A stretch of 64,000 nucleotides of DNA, taken from assembly GCA_027214385.1 (NCBI GenBank), contig JAPVXR010000004.1, positions 248,001-312,000 on the forward strand, written 5' to 3'. Of the stretch, positions 53,094 through 61,549 are shown one piece after another. The notes under the pieces are model-generated. The model searched no databases, was not told the DNA's origin, and saw only the letters and a program-made list of their open reading frames with translations. Origin of the DNA: Cryomorphaceae bacterium 1068 (lineage in GTDB: Bacteria; Bacteroidota; Bacteroidia; Flavobacteriales_D; Cryomorphaceae). Each line of letters begins with the position of its first letter. Within the stretch, counting starts at the first letter, position 1. A program made the position numbers and the translations under genes.

Positions 53094-56000
53094 CTATCGA
53101 TCAATCGAATAGCTTGTATCTTTCTTGTGAATGAACCTGTACTTGATCTTTGCTAATATCAAATACATCACGGGGACAATCACCAATGTTAAAAATGTCG
53201 CGAACGACAAGCCGAAGATGATCGTCCATGACATCGGACCCCAAAAGATCACATTATCTCCTCCCACATAAATCTTCGGATCTAACTCACTCACCAAGCT
53301 AAAGAAGTCAATATTCAAGCCTATTGCCAACGGAACCAACCCCAAAATTGTGGTAATGGCCGTGAGCAAAACGGGACGCAGTCTGGTTCTACCTCCTTCG
53401 ATAATGGCATAAACCGTTTCTTCAAACGGGAGTTTTTCATCCAAAGGTAAGTTGAGCTCTTCCTTACGTCTGGTTCGAATTAAGTTGGTGTAGTCAATCA
53501 AAACGATGGCATTATTTACCACAATTCCCGCCAGGGAGATAATCCCGATCATGGTCATGATGATGATGAAGTCCATGCTGAAAATGACCAAACCAAGGAA
53601 TACGCCGATCAAGCTGAAAAGCACCGCAAATCCTATAATAAAGGGCGTTGATATAGAATTAAACTGAGCCGTGATAATGATTATGATCATAAAAAGGGCT
53701 AGCGCCAAAGCCGTTGTGAGGAAGTCAAGTTCTTTGGCTTGCTCTTCCTGCTGTCCGGTGAAGAGAACCTTTGTGTCGGGGTTGCTTTCGTAATCCTTCA
53801 CCATCTCCTTCATTTTTCCAACGATTTCGGTAGAGTTATACCCTGTAAGAACGTTGGAAGAAATGGTAACTACTCGGTCGAGATCACGACGCTTTACTGC
53901 GCTGAAAGTACTTGATTTCTCAGAACGGGCTACTGAAGAAATCGGCACCTGCACAATCTTTCCGGTTGATTGGTCCCGAAAAGTCAAACGCATATTCATT
54001 AAGGCGTCTTCATTGTCGCGGTAGTGTTTTAGGAGGCGTACATTGATGGGATAATCATCTTCGCCGTCTTTGAATGTAGACACCTCTTTTCCGAACAAGG
54101 CAGTTCTCATAGCGTCGCCGATCTGATATGTTGACACATTGAGTCTCCGTGCTTTATCACGATCGATGATGATCGGCATTTCAGGCTTACCTGTTTCTAT
54201 ATCGAGTTTTAATTCTTCTACTCCCGGTATGTTTTGATCCTGGAAAAAGGACTTAAGCCCTTGAGCATCTGCCATGATTTTTTCGTAGTCTTCTCCTCGA
54301 ACTTCAATATTGATGGGGGCTCCTTGTGGCGGCCCTGCTTCGTTTTTACTAACGGTAATTTGGGTTCCCGGATATCCTCGAAGTTCACCGCGAATGCGTT
54401 CTAACACATCACTCGTTTGAAGTCCTCTTCGATCTTGAAATTTGACAAACTGGACCGTGATCCGTGCTTTGTGAGGCGTATTGGCCTGAGAGAAACCCTG
54501 AGCGGGATCACTCGTTCCATCACCTACCTGCCCGATTACAGATTCGATAAGGAAGGGAATTCGCTCTCCGTCTTTTTGGTAGTAATATTTGTCGTCATCC
54601 AAAATTTCAATCACCCTTTTCTCAAGCTCGAGAGTAGTGCGATTGGTCTCTTCTATATCAGTACCTATAGGCTTTTCGATGAAAATGTTAAGGTACTGTG
54701 GCTCGTTGATGGGAAAGAATTCCACCTTAGGAGGAAAGATCCCAAAGAGCATCAGCGAACCGATCAGCAGGAGAAAGGTTCCTCCAACAAAAGCATAAGG
54801 TCTCTTACCATCAAGGGCGTAACCTAAAAAGCGCTTGTAGTATTCCTCAAGCTTTGGAAGTATCTGATTCTGCAGACGCTTGGTTCCTGGTGTAAGGATG
54901 TAAACATTCAGAATCCCCGAGATTCCGATAAAGAGCGAAATATTCCCAAAAATCATTAAGATGCTTTGATCTGCTACTACAGAAATAACATCGAGAAAAA
55001 CTCCAACTGCAACGAAAATAAGACTGTTCTTGAGCATTTTCCCTTTGTTGATATCAGGCTCTCCCACTTTCATATATACCGATGTCAGCATTGGATTAAT
55101 CACCAACGCCACAAATAGCGAGGATGACAGAACAATGATCAGTGTGATGGGCAAGAAAAACATGAACTCACCGAAAAGCCCGGGCCAAAAAGCCAGTGGT
55201 AAAAAGGCCGCCAATGTGGTCGCGGTAGAGGCAATAATGGGTATGGCCACCTCCCCTACACCTAGCTTGGCTGCCTGAATGGGCGGATATCCCTCATCCA
55301 TAAGTCGGTAAATATTCTCAACCACTACAATACCGTTATCTACCAGCATTCCCAAGGCCAATACCAACCCGAAGAGTACCATTACATTAAGCGTAACTCC
55401 AAGGGCCCCTAAAATCAAGAAGCTCAATAACATGGAAAGTGGAATGGCAATACCTACAAAAAGTGCGTTTCTGAGTCCGAGGAAAAACAAGAGGACTCCT
55501 GTAACGAGCAATACACCGAAGATGATGCTGTTCAAGAGCTCATCAACTTGGGTTCGTGTTTGGTCGCTCTGATCGTTGGTAATGGATATTTGAAGATTTT
55601 CGGGAAAAATATCGGCTTTCGCCTTCTCTATTATTTCGGAGATTTTGTCAGAAGCCTCAATAAGATTCTCGCCTGCACGCTTTTTCACATCGACCATTAC
55701 CACAGGCTTCAGGTATTCACGAGCATAACTCTGGGTTTCCTCCTCTCCAAAGCTCACGTCAGCGACATTTTTTAGATATACAACCTCTTGGTTCTCTCGT
55801 TTTACGATGACGTTTTCTATTTCCTCGACATTGCGAAACTCACCGATAATACGAACGTTTCTGTTGTACTCATCCACCAAAAGATCACCTCCCGAAATGG
55901 TGACATTCTCCTGTGCTATGGCATTGGCAATATCATCAAAGCTTATTTTCATCGCCTCAATGGCCAGCAGGTCGACGTCAATCTTGACTTCCTTGTCCAT

Positions 56001-56588
56001 TACTCCACGGATATCTACCTCTGTAATTTCAGCAAGATCTTCGATTTCGTCTTCAAGGTACTCTGCATAATCCTTGAGTTGTTCTATGGAGAAATCACCC
56101 GATAAGTTGATGTTCATTATCGGTATCATCTCAGAAAAGTTCAACTCGAAAACATTGGGGTCAGCAGGAAGATCTTGCGGAAAATCTCGATCGCTCATAG
56201 CGATATCTACCTTGTCCTTTACCTTTCGTAGCGCCTCATCGGGAGTCACATCAAAGCTGAATTTCACCTGTATGGTAGAATATCCTTGAACGCTGGTGGA
56301 GTTTATCTCGTCCACTCCGGTAATGGCGTTGATTTCCTTTTCGAATGGCCGGGTAATCAATTTCTCAATATCCAACGGCGAGTTTCCGGGATAAGGAGTC
56401 CCTACATAGATCTCAGGAGTTACGACATCGGGGAAATTCTCTTTTGGCATACCCATATACGAGGCTACCCCTCCGAGGAAAATAATAATTGCCAGTACGA
56501 AGACCGTGGTTTTATTATCCACGGAAAGCGATGAAAGACCAAACTCTTTATAGCCTTTTCCGCTTTTTTCAGTTGTGTTTTCTGCCAT
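53094..56588 (-). CDS. RND efflux transporter permease (AcrB-like)
   Basis: This 1164-aa inner-membrane pump of the HAE-1/AcrB type uses the proton gradient to expel toxic compounds. It has the two repeated halves with TM1 (about 30-47), large periplasmic loops and TM blocks. The TM4 motif reads GMLVDNGIVVVEN, so the first proton-relay aspartate is present and the second is Asn. Compared with AcrB (about 1049 aa), it carries an extra hydrophobic segment at about 505-575 (IFVAVGVFLDVISVV and ILMIFGNISLFIGISGILNV) and a small insertion near the end (SELDPKIYVGGDNV). It is the last gene of the TetR-TolC-MFP-RND operon, 2 nt after the adaptor. Confidence 0.93.
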   Translation of the reverse strand: MAENTTEKSGKGYKEFGLSSLSVDNKTTVFVLAIIIFLGGVASYMGMPKENFPDVVTPEIYVGTPYPGNSPLDIEKLITRPFEKEINAITGVDEINSTSVQGYSTIQVKFSFDVTPDEALRKVKDKVDIAMSDRDFPQDLPADPNVFELNFSEMIPIMNINLSGDFSIEQLKDYAEYLEDEIEDLAEITEVDIRGVMDKEVKIDVDLLAIEAMKISFDDIANAIAQENVTISGGDLLVDEYNRNVRIIGEFRNVEEIENVIVKRENQEVVYLKNVADVSFGEEETQSYAREYLKPVVMVDVKKRAGENLIEASDKISEIIEKAKADIFPENLQISITNDQSDQTRTQVDELLNSIIFGVLLVTGVLLFFLGLRNALFVGIAIPLSMLLSFLILGALGVTLNVMVLFGLVLALGMLVDNGIVVVENIYRLMDEGYPPIQAAKLGVGEVAIPIIASTATTLAAFLPLAFWPGLFGEFMFFLPITLIIVLSSSLFVALVINPMLTSVYMKVGEPDINKGKMLKNSLIFVAVGVFLDVISVVADQSILMIFGNISLFIGISGILNVYILTPGTKRLQNQILPKLEEYYKRFLGYALDGKRPYAFVGGTFLLLIGSLMLFGIFPPKVEFFPINEPQYLNIFIEKPIGTDIEETNRTTLELEKRVIEILDDDKYYYQKDGERIPFLIESVIGQVGDGTSDPAQGFSQANTPHKARITVQFVKFQDRRGLQTSDVLERIRGELRGYPGTQITVSKNEAGPPQGAPINIEVRGEDYEKIMADAQGLKSFFQDQNIPGVEELKLDIETGKPEMPIIIDRDKARRLNVSTYQIGDAMRTALFGKEVSTFKDGEDDYPINVRLLKHYRDNEDALMNMRLTFRDQSTGKIVQVPISSVARSEKSSTFSAVKRRDLDRVVTISSNVLTGYNSTEIVGKMKEMVKDYESNPDTKVLFTGQQEEQAKELDFLTTALALALFMIIIIITAQFNSISTPFIIGFAVLFSLIGVFLGLVIFSMDFIIIMTMIGIISLAGIVVNNAIVLIDYTNLIRTRRKEELNLPLDEKLPFEETVYAIIEGGRTRLRPVLLTAITTILGLVPLAIGLNIDFFSLVSELDPKIYVGGDNVIFWGPMSWTIIFGLSFATFLTLVIVPVMYLILAKIKYRFIHKKDTSYSIDR

Positions 56589-56590
56589 CG

Positions 56591-57745
56591 CTATACGGTA
56601 GTTTTTTTCACTTTATCGCCGTCTCTAACCGTTCGAGAACCTTTATCGATTAGCTCATCCCCTTCAACTATTCCTTCTTTTACAACAGTTTTTCCAAGGT
56701 GTGAAGGGCCCGTCTTTATCTGAGTTTTTCGGGCAACTAAATCACTGTTTTCATCCGCTTGAAGCGTGAACACATAATCATTTCCTTCACCATCTTGCAT
56801 GATGACAGATGAAGGAACCACAATCGCGCTTTCTTCGGTGTAATCATTCACTTTTAAAACCACCAGGGAATTTGGCCGCAAAACAGCCACTTTTTCTCCT
56901 ATATCTACCCTGATTTCAAATGATCTGTTCGCCGGATTAATGTAATCTCCAACCCTGGAAATAGCCGATTTGATGGTATCGTTTCTGTTCACAATCACCC
57001 ATACCGAATCGCCTTTCGCGATGTCGCCCATATAGCGCTCTGAAATGTCTGCATTCACGTATAGCTCATCTGTATTGACCAGCCTTACAACGGGTACGGC
57101 CATTCCAACCAACTCTCCGACTTTGGGGAAAATCTTGTCTACCACCCCGTCAAATGGAGCAACAACAGACGATTTTTGTCTTTGCTCGCTCAACGTCGCC
57201 AGAGAGTTTTCAAGTGATTCTTTTCGGTTTTTCGCTTCCAGGTACTGCACTTCACTACCAATATTCTGCTCCCAAAGTCGCTTTTGTTTTTCATACAGCG
57301 TTTCGGCTAGACTAAGCTGAGTTCTTACCTCAGCCATGTTTCGATCGATCAACTCCACATCTTGTAAAACCAATGTTTGGCCTCGTTTAACGGTTTGTCC
57401 CTCCTTTACTACGATAGACTTAATCACCCCTGAATTTTCCGCATAGATGGTTGCAGACTTATCGGATTGCACATTTCCGTACACTTCAAAAAAGTGCTTA
57501 AACGTATCTTTTCCTATTTCAATTCCCGTTACGAGCTTGTCTTCAGTGGTGGAATCCTTTTCAGCTATTTCGCGCTCAAGAACAAGAATTCTGTCGTCCA
57601 ATTCGCCTCGAAGGACTTTAAGAGAATCTCGCTCAGATTTCAACTTTTGCAAATCACCTTGGGGCGCACCTCCGCATGCAACTACTGCAATAGCAATGAG
57701 CCCTAGGCTGAATATCTTCACTGCAGTTTGTCTTATTGATCTCAT
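56591..57745 (-). CDS. RND periplasmic adaptor lipoprotein (MFP)
   Basis: This 384-aa adaptor links the RND pump to the TolC-like channel. It has a lipoprotein signal with lipobox VVACG (Cys at about 24). An N-terminal coiled-coil-like helix follows (about 30-70), then the lipoyl domain (GVIKSIVVKEGQTVKRGQTL) with the alpha-hairpin inserted between its halves (about 130-190, LSLAETLYEKQKRLWEQN). The beta-barrel and membrane-proximal domains come last. It overlaps neither neighbour: 4 nt to TolC upstream, 2 nt to the pump downstream. The extra coiled coil before the lipoyl domain is a known feature of some Bacteroidota adaptors. Confidence 0.92.
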   Translation of the reverse strand: MRSIRQTAVKIFSLGLIAIAVVACGGAPQGDLQKLKSERDSLKVLRGELDDRILVLEREIAEKDSTTEDKLVTGIEIGKDTFKHFFEVYGNVQSDKSATIYAENSGVIKSIVVKEGQTVKRGQTLVLQDVELIDRNMAEVRTQLSLAETLYEKQKRLWEQNIGSEVQYLEAKNRKESLENSLATLSEQRQKSSVVAPFDGVVDKIFPKVGELVGMAVPVVRLVNTDELYVNADISERYMGDIAKGDSVWVIVNRNDTIKSAISRVGDYINPANRSFEIRVDIGEKVAVLRPNSLVVLKVNDYTEESAIVVPSSVIMQDGEGNDYVFTLQADENSDLVARKTQIKTGPSHLGKTVVKEGIVEGDELIDKGSRTVRDGDKVKKTTV

Positions 57746-57749
57746 GTTT

Positions 57750-59084
57750 CTATAATGTGTTTAATGCTTTGTCAAGTGCTTTTTTAGCGTTGAGCAGCTC
57801 GAGCGCCGTTTGAATGTATCTGGTCTGTTCTTGAAGCAATTGATTTTCAGAAATGTTTAACTCAAAACTGTCTGCCACCCCTTCGGAATACTTGATCGTT
57901 GTCTTTTTACTAATCCTTTGGGCCAATTCGAAACTCCGCTTTTGGTTTTCCCAATTTTTGAGGGCAGCCTCGTAATTGCTTCTAGCCTGAACGATTTCTA
58001 GTCTCAACCCATCTTCCGCTTGGCGCAATTGCATTTCGCTTTGTTCGTATGCTATTTGAGATTGCTGAAGCTGACGCTTACGCTGAAAACCGCTGAAAAT
58101 GGGAACATTCAAGGTTAAGCCCCAAACCGATGTTGGAAAAAAGTTATCGGCTGAAGAATCAAAAAAGTTAAACTCGTTGCTCTGCCCGAGTTGCTGGTAG
58201 CTAACGAATCCATTCAATGAGGGATAAAATGTTGCCTTATCTCCTCTTATCTGAAGGTCAGCCAAGGATAGATTGGTCTTGGCCAATAAATAGTCAGGAT
58301 GGTTATAAAGATCAGGCTCCTGTTCCAGATACTCAGGAGAATTATTCAAAACAACCAAACTCTCTATATCATCTGTGAGAGTAATCTCTGTGCTGATCGG
58401 AAGACCCATAATATAAAGCAAAGCCTGTCTCGAAATGATGAGTATTCTTTCCGTATTGTCTCTACTGATGATGAGTTTGTTTCGGTTCAGCTCAAGCTGA
58501 TCAACATCTTGCTCTTCAGTCAATCCATTTTCATAAAGCGCTCTGGTTTCTTCCAACGTTTTATCAAGATTGGCAACATTTTCGGTGAGGATGTCAAAGT
58601 TAGCCTGCGCCAATAGTGTGGTGTAATAAGCATCTGCCGTAGCGAGCTTAATATCCTGAACGGCCTTACTCTTTTGGATGCGAGAAAACTCAACCACCGT
58701 CTTGGCCGCCTGAAGACCAATGAAGTACGTTCCATCAAAAATTAACTGAGTAGCTTGAATGGAACCGTTCAAATTGTAATTCACCCCAAACTGAGCTTCA
58801 ATAAATTCTCCAGGCTCCTGCCCCAACTGCTCAGATGGAATAAGCTGAGTGGGAATCTCAAGAAAATTCTGAAACTGAGCTTGTGCATTTACCTGTGGTA
58901 AACCAATGGCAATTACTTCTTGTACCTCTCGCTCCTTTTTCAAAAGGTTGAACTCGGCATCTCTGGTGGCGTAACTACTATCTACAGCTATCTGAATAGC
59001 CTCCTCCAGCGAAACAGCCAGAGACTGCCCCATTAACTGCGCAGATAGAACCAAACCTAGAAAAGCCAAAATGAATCTGGTCAT
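57750..59084 (-). CDS. TolC-family outer-membrane efflux channel
   Basis: This 444-aa outer-membrane efflux protein has a signal peptide (about 1-20, SAQLMGQ) and two repeated outer-membrane-efflux (OEP) domains. Long amphipathic helices are visible at about 125-200 and 340-430. Typical blocks are LSLEEAIQIA-like SLAVSLEEAIQIA near the start and LQLRQAEDGLRLEIVQARS-like segments in the second half. It provides the exit duct for the pump. It lies 4 nt after the TetR gene and 4 nt before the adaptor gene, so all four are one transcript. Confidence 0.92.
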   Translation of the reverse strand: MTRFILAFLGLVLSAQLMGQSLAVSLEEAIQIAVDSSYATRDAEFNLLKKEREVQEVIAIGLPQVNAQAQFQNFLEIPTQLIPSEQLGQEPGEFIEAQFGVNYNLNGSIQATQLIFDGTYFIGLQAAKTVVEFSRIQKSKAVQDIKLATADAYYTTLLAQANFDILTENVANLDKTLEETRALYENGLTEEQDVDQLELNRNKLIISRDNTERILIISRQALLYIMGLPISTEITLTDDIESLVVLNNSPEYLEQEPDLYNHPDYLLAKTNLSLADLQIRGDKATFYPSLNGFVSYQQLGQSNEFNFFDSSADNFFPTSVWGLTLNVPIFSGFQRKRQLQQSQIAYEQSEMQLRQAEDGLRLEIVQARSNYEAALKNWENQKRSFELAQRISKKTTIKYSEGVADSFELNISENQLLQEQTRYIQTALELLNAKKALDKALNTL

Positions 59085-59088
59085 GGTG

Positions 59089-59709
59089 TTAGTTTAGTTT
59101 ATGTTGGTTTTTTTCAATGTATTTTAATCCTTCATTGCTCGCGATCCCGCGGACGTGGTGAATGAACATTTGGCGGTAGACCTCCACTAAATCATAGTCA
59201 TTCAATGAAAACAGGTTGGGATCGAAAATGATATTCAAACGTGCTACCCAGAGTTGGGTCATCAATTCCACATTCAAATCCTTTCGGTATAACCCTTCCT
59301 TAATTCCACGCTCCATATTGTGCTTCATCACCACTCCCACAAATTCGTGTCGAAGATTTTGCATGGTGTTCCATGCATCCGGGTAGTATTTCTCCAGATC
59401 ATAAAAGATGGAAGGGTGAATGTTCTTCAAATCTTCTACTATGTGTTTGGAGATTTCAAAGTTCTCCTCAATAGCATTGAGGCCTTTGCTCAATATTTCT
59501 TTAACGGTGTCCTCCGTTATGTTGCAATCGTGCTTAAGGCACCTCGTTACCAAATCGTTTTTATCCGAAACGTATTGGTAAAGAGTCTTCTTTGACATGC
59601 GCATGTGCTTCGCAATGTCATCCATTGTAACGCTCTTGATGCCGTAAGTCATGAAGACTTTGATGGCATCGGCGATAATCTGCTGCTCTTTATCTACTTG
59701 TGTGCTCAT
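59089..59709 (-). CDS. TetR/AcrR-family transcriptional regulator
   Basis: This 206-aa regulator has an N-terminal TetR HTH (about 8-55, IIADAIKVFMTYGIKSVTMD then IAKHMRMSKKTLYQYVSDK) and an all-helical ligand-binding C-terminus. The start is the ATG at 59709; the frame extends to a TTG at 59724 but that lies before the predicted transcription start. It is the first gene of the efflux operon and probably controls it together with itself. A -7 box (59722-59729) and a candidate operator (59741-59783) lie upstream. TetR regulators of this kind usually repress until the pump's substrate binds. Confidence 0.92.
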   Translation of the reverse strand: MSTQVDKEQQIIADAIKVFMTYGIKSVTMDDIAKHMRMSKKTLYQYVSDKNDLVTRCLKHDCNITEDTVKEILSKGLNAIEENFEISKHIVEDLKNIHPSIFYDLEKYYPDAWNTMQNLRHEFVGVVMKHNMERGIKEGLYRKDLNVELMTQLWVARLNIIFDPNLFSLNDYDLVEVYRQMFIHHVRGIASNEGLKYIEKNQHKLN

Positions 59710-59721
59710 AAATTGGGACGA

Positions 59722-59729
59722 CAAATGTA
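59722..59729 (-). promoter_or_regulatory. -7 box TACATTTG of the efflux operon
   Basis: TACATTTG on the minus strand fits TAnnTTTG. Transcription would start near 59715, about 6 nt before the TetR ATG, so the message is almost leaderless. Confidence 0.5.
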
Positions 59730-59740
59730 GAACACATTTT

Positions 59741-59783
59741 ACACATAGGAAACGTTTTAACTATTTTTTGTTTCCTGCGGTGT
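59741..59783. promoter_or_regulatory. Candidate TetR operator (imperfect inverted repeat)
   Basis: ACACATAGGAAAC (59741-59753) and GTTTCCTGCGGTGT (59770-59783) are inverted: the AGGAAAC/GTTTCCT and ACAC/GTGT blocks match perfectly, with a 2-nt against 3-nt mismatch between them and a 16-nt spacer. It overlaps the -33 region of the operon promoter. Confidence 0.35.
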
Positions 59784-59876
59784 TCTAAACATGATGCATT
59801 TCTAAAAAATCATGTTGATTTTAGCTTTTTCTTCCGGTCAGTACTTGCTTTAATTGTCACGTCACACTCCATATGA

Positions 59877-60072
59877 AATTGAAAGGGTTCGATCCCCTTT
59901 CAATTCTCAACTGTTTTCCCAAGTGCAGCGTAATCAAATTATGCAGACGACCAGCGGGAGCGAATAATTTGATTAGCGTGTCGAAAGGTCGCTTAGCTTT
60001 TTCAAAAGCGACCGAAGAAGCACCTAGGGAAAACAAGTGAATTTTGGTTCTTTTCTTCTACGGGAAAAGAAC
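59877..60072. repeat. Dense nested inverted repeats; possible structured RNA or dispersed repeat
   Basis: Three separate structures lie in this gap. First, AATTGAAAGGG/CCCTTTCAATT (59877-59887 and 59895-59905) has the 7-nt loop TTCGATC. Second, GTTTTCCC..GTGC (59913-59926) pairs with GCAC..GGGAAAAC (60020-60034), enclosing TAATCAAATTA/TAATTTGATTA (59931-59941 and 59965-59975) and GGTCGCTT/AAGCGACC (59987-59994 and 60006-60013). Third, GTTCTTTTC/GAAAAGAAC (60047-60055 and 60064-60072). The gap has no plausible gene. The strand used is unknown. Confidence 0.6.
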
Positions 60073-60124
60073 AAGTCAAATAATCACCAAAAAGTTCGTT
60101 GTTTTGTACCCTCAAAACTGAGCA

Positions 60125-61549
60125 ATGGCAAGCATTAAAGAGATTTTAAATAAGCCCACAATCGGCGAATCAGTAAGAATTTCGGGTTGGGTACGCACTT
60201 TTCGAAGCAATCGCTTCATCGCTTTGAGCGATGGATCGGTGATCCAAACCATTCAAGGAGTCGTGGACTTTGAGCAGATGGATGAAGCGATTTTAAATCG
60301 AATCAATACAGGTACAGCCCTTACCATGACCGGGAAACTGGTGGAAAGTCAAGGAAAAGGACAAACGGTTGAAGTTCAGGTGGAGTCTATTGAAATTCAC
60401 GGTGATGCCGATCCCGAGGAGTATCCGTTGCAGCCCAAAAAACACAGCTTGGATTTCCTTCGCGAAAAAGCACACCTGCGATTTCGCACGAATACTTTCG
60501 GAGCGATATTCCGTTTGCGGCACGCGCTGAGTTTTGCCGTTCACAATTACTTCAACGAAAGAAACTTCTTTTATATCCATACGCCCATTATTACGGGTTC
60601 TGATGCTGAAGGTGCGGGTGAGATGTTCCGTGTGACCACTCTTGATCCGAAGAATCCTCCCACTACTGACGATGGAAAGGTGGATCATGATCAAGACTTT
60701 TTTGGAAAGGAAACCAACCTTACGGTTTCCGGGCAACTTGAAGCGGAACTAGCGGCTCTCGCTTTGAGCAAAGTATATACGTTCGGACCTGCCTTCCGTG
60801 CTGAGAATTCAAATACTTCTCGACACCTCTCTGAGTTTTGGATGATAGAGCCAGAAGTGGCTTTCGCCGATCTCACCGACAATATGAATTTAGTGGAAGA
60901 CTTCCTCAAATACTTGGTGAGCTATGCTTTGAAAAATTGCAAGGACGACTTGGAATTTCTCGCTCAACGAGAAGCGCAAGAAGAAAAGTCGAAGCCTCAG
61001 AACGAACGCAATGCTATGGGATTGATGGAGCGATTGACCTTCATTTCTGAAAATGATTTTGAACGATTGACTTACACCGAGGCGATTGATATCCTTCGAA
61101 ATTCAAAGCCTTTCAAAAAGAAAAAATTCAAATATCCGGTTGAATGGGGAAAAGATCTTCAGAGCGAGCACGAACGGTATTTGGTAGAAAAGCACTTTGA
61201 AAAACCTGTAATTCTTACCGACTATCCCGCTTCGTTCAAAGCATTCTATATGCGTTTGAATGACGACGAGAAAACCGTGGCAGCCATGGACGTTCTGTTC
61301 CCGGGTGTGGGTGAAATAACCGGTGGTTCTCAACGTGAGGAGAGGCTCGATGTGCTCAAACGACGATCGTCAGAAATGGGCATTGCCGAGGAAGAATTGT
61401 GGTGGTATCTCGATACGCGAAAATATGGAACGTGCAAGCATGCAGGTTTTGGGCTGGGCTTCGAAAGATTGGTGATGTTCGTGACGGGAATGACCAACAT
61501 TCGCGATGTGATTCCTTTTCCGAGATCGCCGAAGAACTGCGAATTTTAA
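60125..61549 (+). CDS. asnS: Asparagine--tRNA ligase
   Basis: AsnRS charges tRNA-Asn. The 474-aa product has an N-terminal OB-fold (about 15-110, VRISGWVRTFRSNRFIALSDG). The class IIb catalytic core follows, with motif 2 FGPAFRAENSNTSRHLSEFW (about 222-241) and motif 3 GFGLGFERLVMFVTGMTNIR (about 441-460). AsnRS is distinguished from AspRS by this motif 2 context. The start is ATG 60125. The upstream region is unusually rich in inverted repeats (59877-60072), but I see no T-box elements. The end overlaps the convergent ABC permease by 4 nt. Confidence 0.95.
   Translation: MASIKEILNKPTIGESVRISGWVRTFRSNRFIALSDGSVIQTIQGVVDFEQMDEAILNRINTGTALTMTGKLVESQGKGQTVEVQVESIEIHGDADPEEYPLQPKKHSLDFLREKAHLRFRTNTFGAIFRLRHALSFAVHNYFNERNFFYIHTPIITGSDAEGAGEMFRVTTLDPKNPPTTDDGKVDHDQDFFGKETNLTVSGQLEAELAALALSKVYTFGPAFRAENSNTSRHLSEFWMIEPEVAFADLTDNMNLVEDFLKYLVSYALKNCKDDLEFLAQREAQEEKSKPQNERNAMGLMERLTFISENDFERLTYTEAIDILRNSKPFKKKKFKYPVEWGKDLQSEHERYLVEKHFEKPVILTDYPASFKAFYMRLNDDEKTVAAMDVLFPGVGEITGGSQREERLDVLKRRSSEMGIAEEELWWYLDTRKYGTCKHAGFGLGFERLVMFVTGMTNIRDVIPFPRSPKNCEF

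Follow-up and report, generated by a model that had tools for sequence, protein, structure and literature searches.

A hairpin cluster upstream of asnS in Cryomorphaceae bacterium 1068 as a copy of a small, structured and probably mobile repeat

In Cryomorphaceae bacterium 1068, about 200 nt located upstream of asnS, the gene of asparaginyl-tRNA synthetase, are crowded with inverted repeats. Does this cluster belong to asnS as a leader, does it encode an RNA of its own, or is it a member of a dispersed repeat family, three possibilities raised by the original prediction? The window analyzed in this work is the whole stretch of 64,000 nucleotides (positions 248,001 to 312,000 of contig JAPVXR010000004.1, assembly GCA_027214385.1). 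Our analysis suggests that the cluster is a copy of a non-coding, non-autonomous mobile repeat of ~219 bp (probability of about 0.76), a reading drawn from sequence comparison. This element is multi-copy and intergenic, the fold persists despite sequence drift, and relatives lack it at three or more of its six sites.

The folded unit and its copies

From left to right, the window copy comprises hairpin H0, a three-way junction enclosing two inner hairpins (H1 and H2) and a tail carrying a last hairpin (H3):

59855..60073, + strand: whole repeat unit, TGTCACG ... GAAAAGAACA; similarity between copies starts at TGTCACG and stops after H3
59874..59909, + strand: H0, loop TTCGATC, 11-bp perfect stem in the inverted-repeat listing (AATTGAAAGGG, 59877-59887; CCCTTTCAATT, 59895-59905); the stem covaries over six copies
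59913..59926, + strand: 5' arm of the outer stem of the junction, GTTTTCCC ... GTGC; all six pairs of helix 1 show two-sided changes
59931..59975, + strand: H1, 12-bp perfect stem (TAATCAAATTAT, 59931-59942; ATAATTTGATTA, 59964-59975); extra hairpin modules are found here in some copies of the sister genus
59987..60013, + strand: H2, 8-bp stem (GGTCGCTT, 59987-59994; AAGCGACC, 60006-60013); GGCCGTT/AACGGCC in copies of the sister genus, with two-sided change at 5/7 pairs of helix 6
60020..60034, + strand: 3' arm of the outer stem, GCAC ... GGGAAAAC
60042..60075, + strand: tail module, TTTTG followed by H3 (9 bp; GTTCTTTTC, 60047-60055; GAAAAGAAC, 60064-60072); best match of the window to the tail model R2 (see below)

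The junction is closed by pairing of GTTTTCCC (59913-59920) with GGGAAAAC (60027-60034), followed by a second segment that pairs GTGC (59923-59926) with GCAC (60020-60023). All the stems initially described are present when checked letter by letter; of the two inner hairpins announced as 11 and 8 bp, both exist and the shorter one was correctly measured, the longer one having 12 bp. The impression that hairpins are more numerous than expected by chance is borne out, since region 59860-60090 folds at -73.4 kcal/mol compared to -48.8 +- 4.3 for dinucleotide-shuffled sequences, none of 200 folding equally low (z -5.7). The minus strand of the junction core folds as well (z -4.9), as palindromes should. 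The loop of H0 had been likened to a T-loop, a hint that finds no echo in our searches: no tRNA or tmRNA was detected in the window, none of 4227 Rfam families matched it at the gathering threshold, the three sub-threshold matches in 59700-60150 are not credible, and other copies have a different loop (mostly GGCTCGATGCC, closing bases included).

A genome-wide search by blastn (4.32 Mb, 59 contigs), the check proposed for a dispersed family, revealed six copies that are 82-85% alike in their main pieces. Their locations are given below, the names of the neighboring genes being our interpretation of open reading frames (ORFs):

Window copy: upstream of asnS, between divergent genes
L002: hisC-hisB gap, sense
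L003: upstream of a DoxX-like gene, sense
L004: hydrolase-engB gap, antisense, inside an operon
L005: permease-tpiA gap, sense
L006: gap between convergent genes of a surface-polysaccharide region; insertion of ~50 nt ahead of H3

The five copies other than that of the window adjoin unrelated genes, in both orientations, and no clear likeness between the copies of this genome was found outside TGTCACG ... GAACA. Nine copies served to build a covariance model (R1) of the junction, which found no further match in a 400-kb sample of the 4.32 Mb. Matches to R1 were obtained in 3/8 genomes of the same family (own genome included) and, for the core, in 3/399 genomes of the order, namely the own genome (six), a congener (G001; one) and a member of the sister genus (G002); this last scan, in which scoring was limited to the best candidates from a loose prefilter, can miss divergent copies. 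R1 scans, including 399 kb searched directly, and BLAST revealed at least eight loci in G002, forming two subfamilies. Some of these copies have another outer stem (GTTTTCGAA/TTCGAAAAC) and other H1 and H2 sequences with the same junction fold (z -6.7 for L059 and -3.4 for L023). Four others (L016, L019, L021 and L125) have additional hairpin modules, CATGCTGACATCAGTGAAGCTGATCGTCAGT among them, within H1 as well as tail inserts, which amounts to a stepwise growth of the element. Carriage by phages or plasmids was searched by blastn without any match, and a pattern search of viral contigs was equally negative. The same kind of search on genome contigs returned eight stretches, three of them from G002; the other five have weak or zero R1 scores and were taken as chance.

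The proposed three-way junction is found again across copies, with covarying stems. Using RNAalifold, two-sided changes were found at 12/36 pairs for nine cores and at 12/67 pairs for six full copies, many of them in H0 (for example, one pair is CG in three copies, GC in two and UA in one). In alignment A5 (14 rows, two of them from the same element in pieces), 95.3% of cells are paired, a fit that favors structure since the rows were fitted to the model. Two-sided change affects 23 of its pairs compared to 11.2 in shuffles (0/500 as high), and slid alignments give 2-9 pairs. When folded individually, 8/9 cores have z values of -2.5 to -6.1, and these eight all form H2 and the outer stem; in L010, H1 adopts an alternative form in the best fold. 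Locus L011 of the congener, orthologous to L003 by synteny, has lost the fold (z +0.95), and therefore the host site does not require it.

Sites with and without the element

Around the window copy, two features are needed for comparison with relatives:

60125..61549, + strand: asnS, downstream neighbor; ORF with matches in 7/7 genomes of the same family, some of them partial
60093..60118, + strand: conserved block outside the repeat, probable promoter or 5' end of asnS; recognizable in 6/6 genomes examined

In the congener G001, the divergent tetR-asnS pair is retained without the element, no R1 match being found at this locus (L026), and the block, ending with GTTTGTTGTTTTGTACCC, is kept before the start codon of asnS. 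This places the element upstream of the probable asnS promoter. At two other sites, genes separated in the own genome are contiguous in relatives: (i) hisC and hisB touch in both relatives read (G001 and G005) and are 319 nt apart in the own genome, and (ii) the hydrolase gene and engB are adjacent in two of three relatives (G002 and G005), the region being rearranged in G001, and are ~335 nt apart in the own genome. In the permease-tpiA gap, the site that holds L005 in the own genome is occupied in the congener (L076) by a hairpin repeat of another, unrelated kind, GTCAGTTCGAGTG ... CACTCGAACTGAC. For the compared sites, insertion would be the simplest reading. The his and engB spacers exceed the length of the repeat, part of the flanking DNA being unaccounted for by it; at hisC-hisB, GCATGA was read by eye on both sides of the insert. 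As a separate observation, the engB match of the congener (L093) was reported with one in-frame TAG.

A 3' tail common to unrelated repeats

BLAST searches with the copies of G002 also brought up tails on other bodies. The same type of tail (T-run, G and pyrimidine-rich hairpin) ends family C of G002 (~290 nt) and three single elements of the own genome, D (L108), E (L109) and F (L111). The pattern TTTTTGTTNCTTTTN{3,14}AAAAGNAA is present in 46/247 genomes of the class, own genome included, with up to 128 occurrences in one of them, compared to 8/247 genomes with one occurrence each for the reversed pattern. Thus, a 3' module made of a T-run and a pyrimidine-rich hairpin is common to otherwise unrelated structured repeats, both in this lineage and across the class.

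The tail model R2 was built from 13 tails of other genomes of the class, without the window family. These are the tails of one length (44 nt, alignment A8) among a listing of 22 that omitted loci L143, L157, L160 and L164; alignment A7 also omitted L145. Over the 64 kb of the window, the tail of the window copy is the top match of R2 (20.3 bits, rough E 0.003), the next-best match (10.2 bits) being the reverse strand of the same tail. In the own genome, it detects D, F and E and other copies of the window family (family A), L002 only at E 0.08; in G002, it matches families A', B and C.

A stem closing the body lies close to many tails: for 12/29, an arm of 9 bp or more pairs perfectly with an upstream partner, compared to 4.7% of 911 control placements (one of the 29 tails, L157, belongs to the window family). 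The 6 nt preceding the T-run can, in many families, pair with the loop of the tail hairpin and the two change together (CTTGAT/ATCAAG, CTTGAA/TTCAAG, CTTGAC/GTCAAG), but CTAGAT/ATCATG variants break two of these pairs. This complementarity exceeds that of permutations (mean 3.66 compared to 2.96 +- 0.13, 0/2000, for 35 unique pairs, omitting copy C7 (L052), whose tail has an insert before H3). Given the variants with broken pairs, a pseudoknot between pre-tail and loop is put forward only as a hypothesis. In two other tail-rich genomes, 20/21 tails are intergenic and no recurrent neighboring gene or protein was found around the 21.

In eukaryotes, short interspersed nuclear elements (SINEs) can carry the 3' tail of long interspersed nuclear elements (LINEs), so that unrelated non-coding bodies have a common 3' module. 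The element resembles them by this module but differs by the lack of a demonstrated RNA intermediate or reverse transcriptase. It is conceivable, although we give it little credence, that Bacteroidia harbor a counterpart of the SINE/LINE couple, in which many unrelated structured RNAs would spread through a common 3' tail (T-run and A-rich hairpin, with a possible pre-tail/loop pseudoknot) recognized by one trans-acting enzyme, perhaps a reverse transcriptase.

Several observations concern tail-bearing elements besides the window family. Family C copies of G002 are found at L126:18680-19070, L126:19362 on, L123:8786-9075, L123:15913-16183 and L129:10885-11173 (minus strand); their fold is very strong (about -85 to -90 kcal/mol over 260 nt) and those of L126 come after the start of a B-type element. 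In G489, L212:700-1170 holds two head-to-head tail elements forming a long inverted pair (-214.6 kcal/mol). Another repeat of G011, which belongs to a different family of the order (L012, L015, L017, L020, L022, L024 and L025), has a nearly identical H3-like tail, and several of its copies lie at or near contig ends.

Mobility, known systems and competing explanations

From the comparison of copies and sites, we infer that the element is mobile. Its fold would be recognized by a trans-acting enzyme of the cell that copies or moves it, the common tail probably serving as the recognition end and the body being exchangeable. The asnS copy would have landed upstream of the promoter, probably with little effect, whereas within operons (hisC-hisB and hydrolase-engB) the hairpins would enter the mRNA and may alter its stability or coupling. 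Several points weigh against this proposal. A candidate target duplication (GCATGA) was found at the hisC-hisB locus only, insertion borders being ambiguous elsewhere and their exact position not readable at asnS. The unit lacks terminal inverted repeats, as none of the listed inverted repeats joins its ends. The window tail is only a moderate match to the tail of the class, covering positions 11-44 of the model, and its pre-tail/loop complementarity is of 3 nt compared to 6 nt in several other families. Lastly, no enzyme was linked to the element by searches aimed at Y1 transposases and at REP-associated tyrosine transposases (RAYTs; REP, repetitive extragenic palindrome), reverse transcriptases and other transposases not having been searched for. 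The sites without element make mobility testable, and the mobilizing enzyme could be sought directly through the tail that unrelated bodies have in common. If the proposal of a mobile element is wrong, a function will still have to be found for a conserved three-way-junction fold.

The reading as a dispersed repeat is supported, and the kind is that of small structured interspersed repeats, the common tail adding to its interest. The source on BOX of Streptococcus pneumoniae (PMC3049150) depicts a small, interspersed, non-coding and intergenic repeat that folds strongly if transcribed, is modular with an inner hairpin that can be dispensed with or multiplied, and is thought to be a non-autonomous parasite. 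Like BOX as depicted there, the element is small, intergenic and strongly folded, with a modular inner hairpin; it is multi-copy, with a conserved fold, no coding capacity and empty sites in relatives. It differs from BOX by its phylum, by its comparable empty sites in relatives and by a tail common to unrelated bodies, the likeness being one of description and not of compared sequences. BrickBuilt of Porphyromonas gingivalis, a miniature inverted-repeat transposable element with terminal inverted repeats and an inner minisatellite (PMC4596501), is likewise a non-coding repeat of Bacteroidota for which mobilization in trans is presumed, but the element has neither of these two features. No prior description of the element or tail sequences was found in the literature searched (few subscription journals, no supplements), and no Rfam family matches the repeat or the relatives of its tail; both appear uncatalogued.

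It is unlikely that the element is an atypical REP mobilized by a single-strand transposase of the RAYT (TnpA-REP) type, as described for subclass 2.6 of Bacteroidetes. According to two sources (PMC3733652 and PMC6006769), REPs and REPINs associated with RAYTs, including the atypical ones of Bacteroidetes, are similarly extragenic, palindromic and multi-copy, and occur in head-to-head pairs such as that of L212. Weak RAYT-like Y1 matches were moreover found in 12/16 tail-bearing compared to 5/15 tail-free genomes, a difference counted by eye and post hoc. However, a REP is a palindrome of 20-40 bp with a GTAG tag at one end, according to PMC3733652, whereas the element has 219 nt, four hairpins and a three-way junction. 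No GTAG tag was found at the feet of its stems, and no RAYT gene bordered by it was found in the loci examined. CGTC, of REP type, lies near the left end of the window copy and of L005 but not of L002, L003, L004 and L006. A profile search for Y1_Tnp (PF01797) did not detect it in the own genome, another point against the mobile repeat as proposed here; elsewhere, PF01797 was found in 27/31 genomes, tail-bearing or tail-free alike. No gene bordered by the tail was seen among 27 Y1/RAYT-like genes analyzed, which weighs in the same direction. Only one of 32 Y1/RAYT-like loci has a tail-model match at E < 0.01, ~1.2 kb from the gene, and the flanks of RAYT-like genes, where readable, carry other short palindromes.

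Quite improbable too is a family of functional genes for small RNAs, in which the copies would stem from gene duplication and not from selfish insertion. Compensatory changes in the stems would fit such genes, as would a weak wobble strand bias (12 G-U compared to 2 A-C cells, a count that excluded the L016 rows and then L011 and depends on the alignment, fitted to the model). However, no upstream region is conserved beyond TGTCACG, and therefore the copies have no common promoter. The loss of the fold in the congener orthologue L011 and the presence of copies in both orientations, one of them antisense within an operon, also argue against this explanation.

We consider it very unlikely that the element is a transcription terminator or stabilizer of mRNA 3' ends that spreads through its usefulness downstream of genes. 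Its hairpins are strong, and among the 20 tails for which an upstream neighbor was called, this gene has the same direction in 13, but such a proportion can arise by chance, the T-run comes ahead of the tail hairpin and not after it, and the window copy lies between divergent genes.

A cis-regulatory leader of asnS (attenuator or sensor), suggested by the strong fold and by the 51 nt that separate the end of the repeat from the asnS start on the same strand, is highly improbable, given the congener that lacks the element and keeps the block, the unrelated genes next to the five other copies, and the position of the element upstream of this conserved block, without the conservation with the gene and probably without the location in the 5' untranslated region of a T-box or attenuator. 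On the other side of the window copy, region 53094-59724 contains, according to our reading of its ORFs, genes of a resistance-nodulation-division (RND) efflux system (pump, adaptor and outer membrane channel) and of a TetR-type regulator, divergent from asnS.
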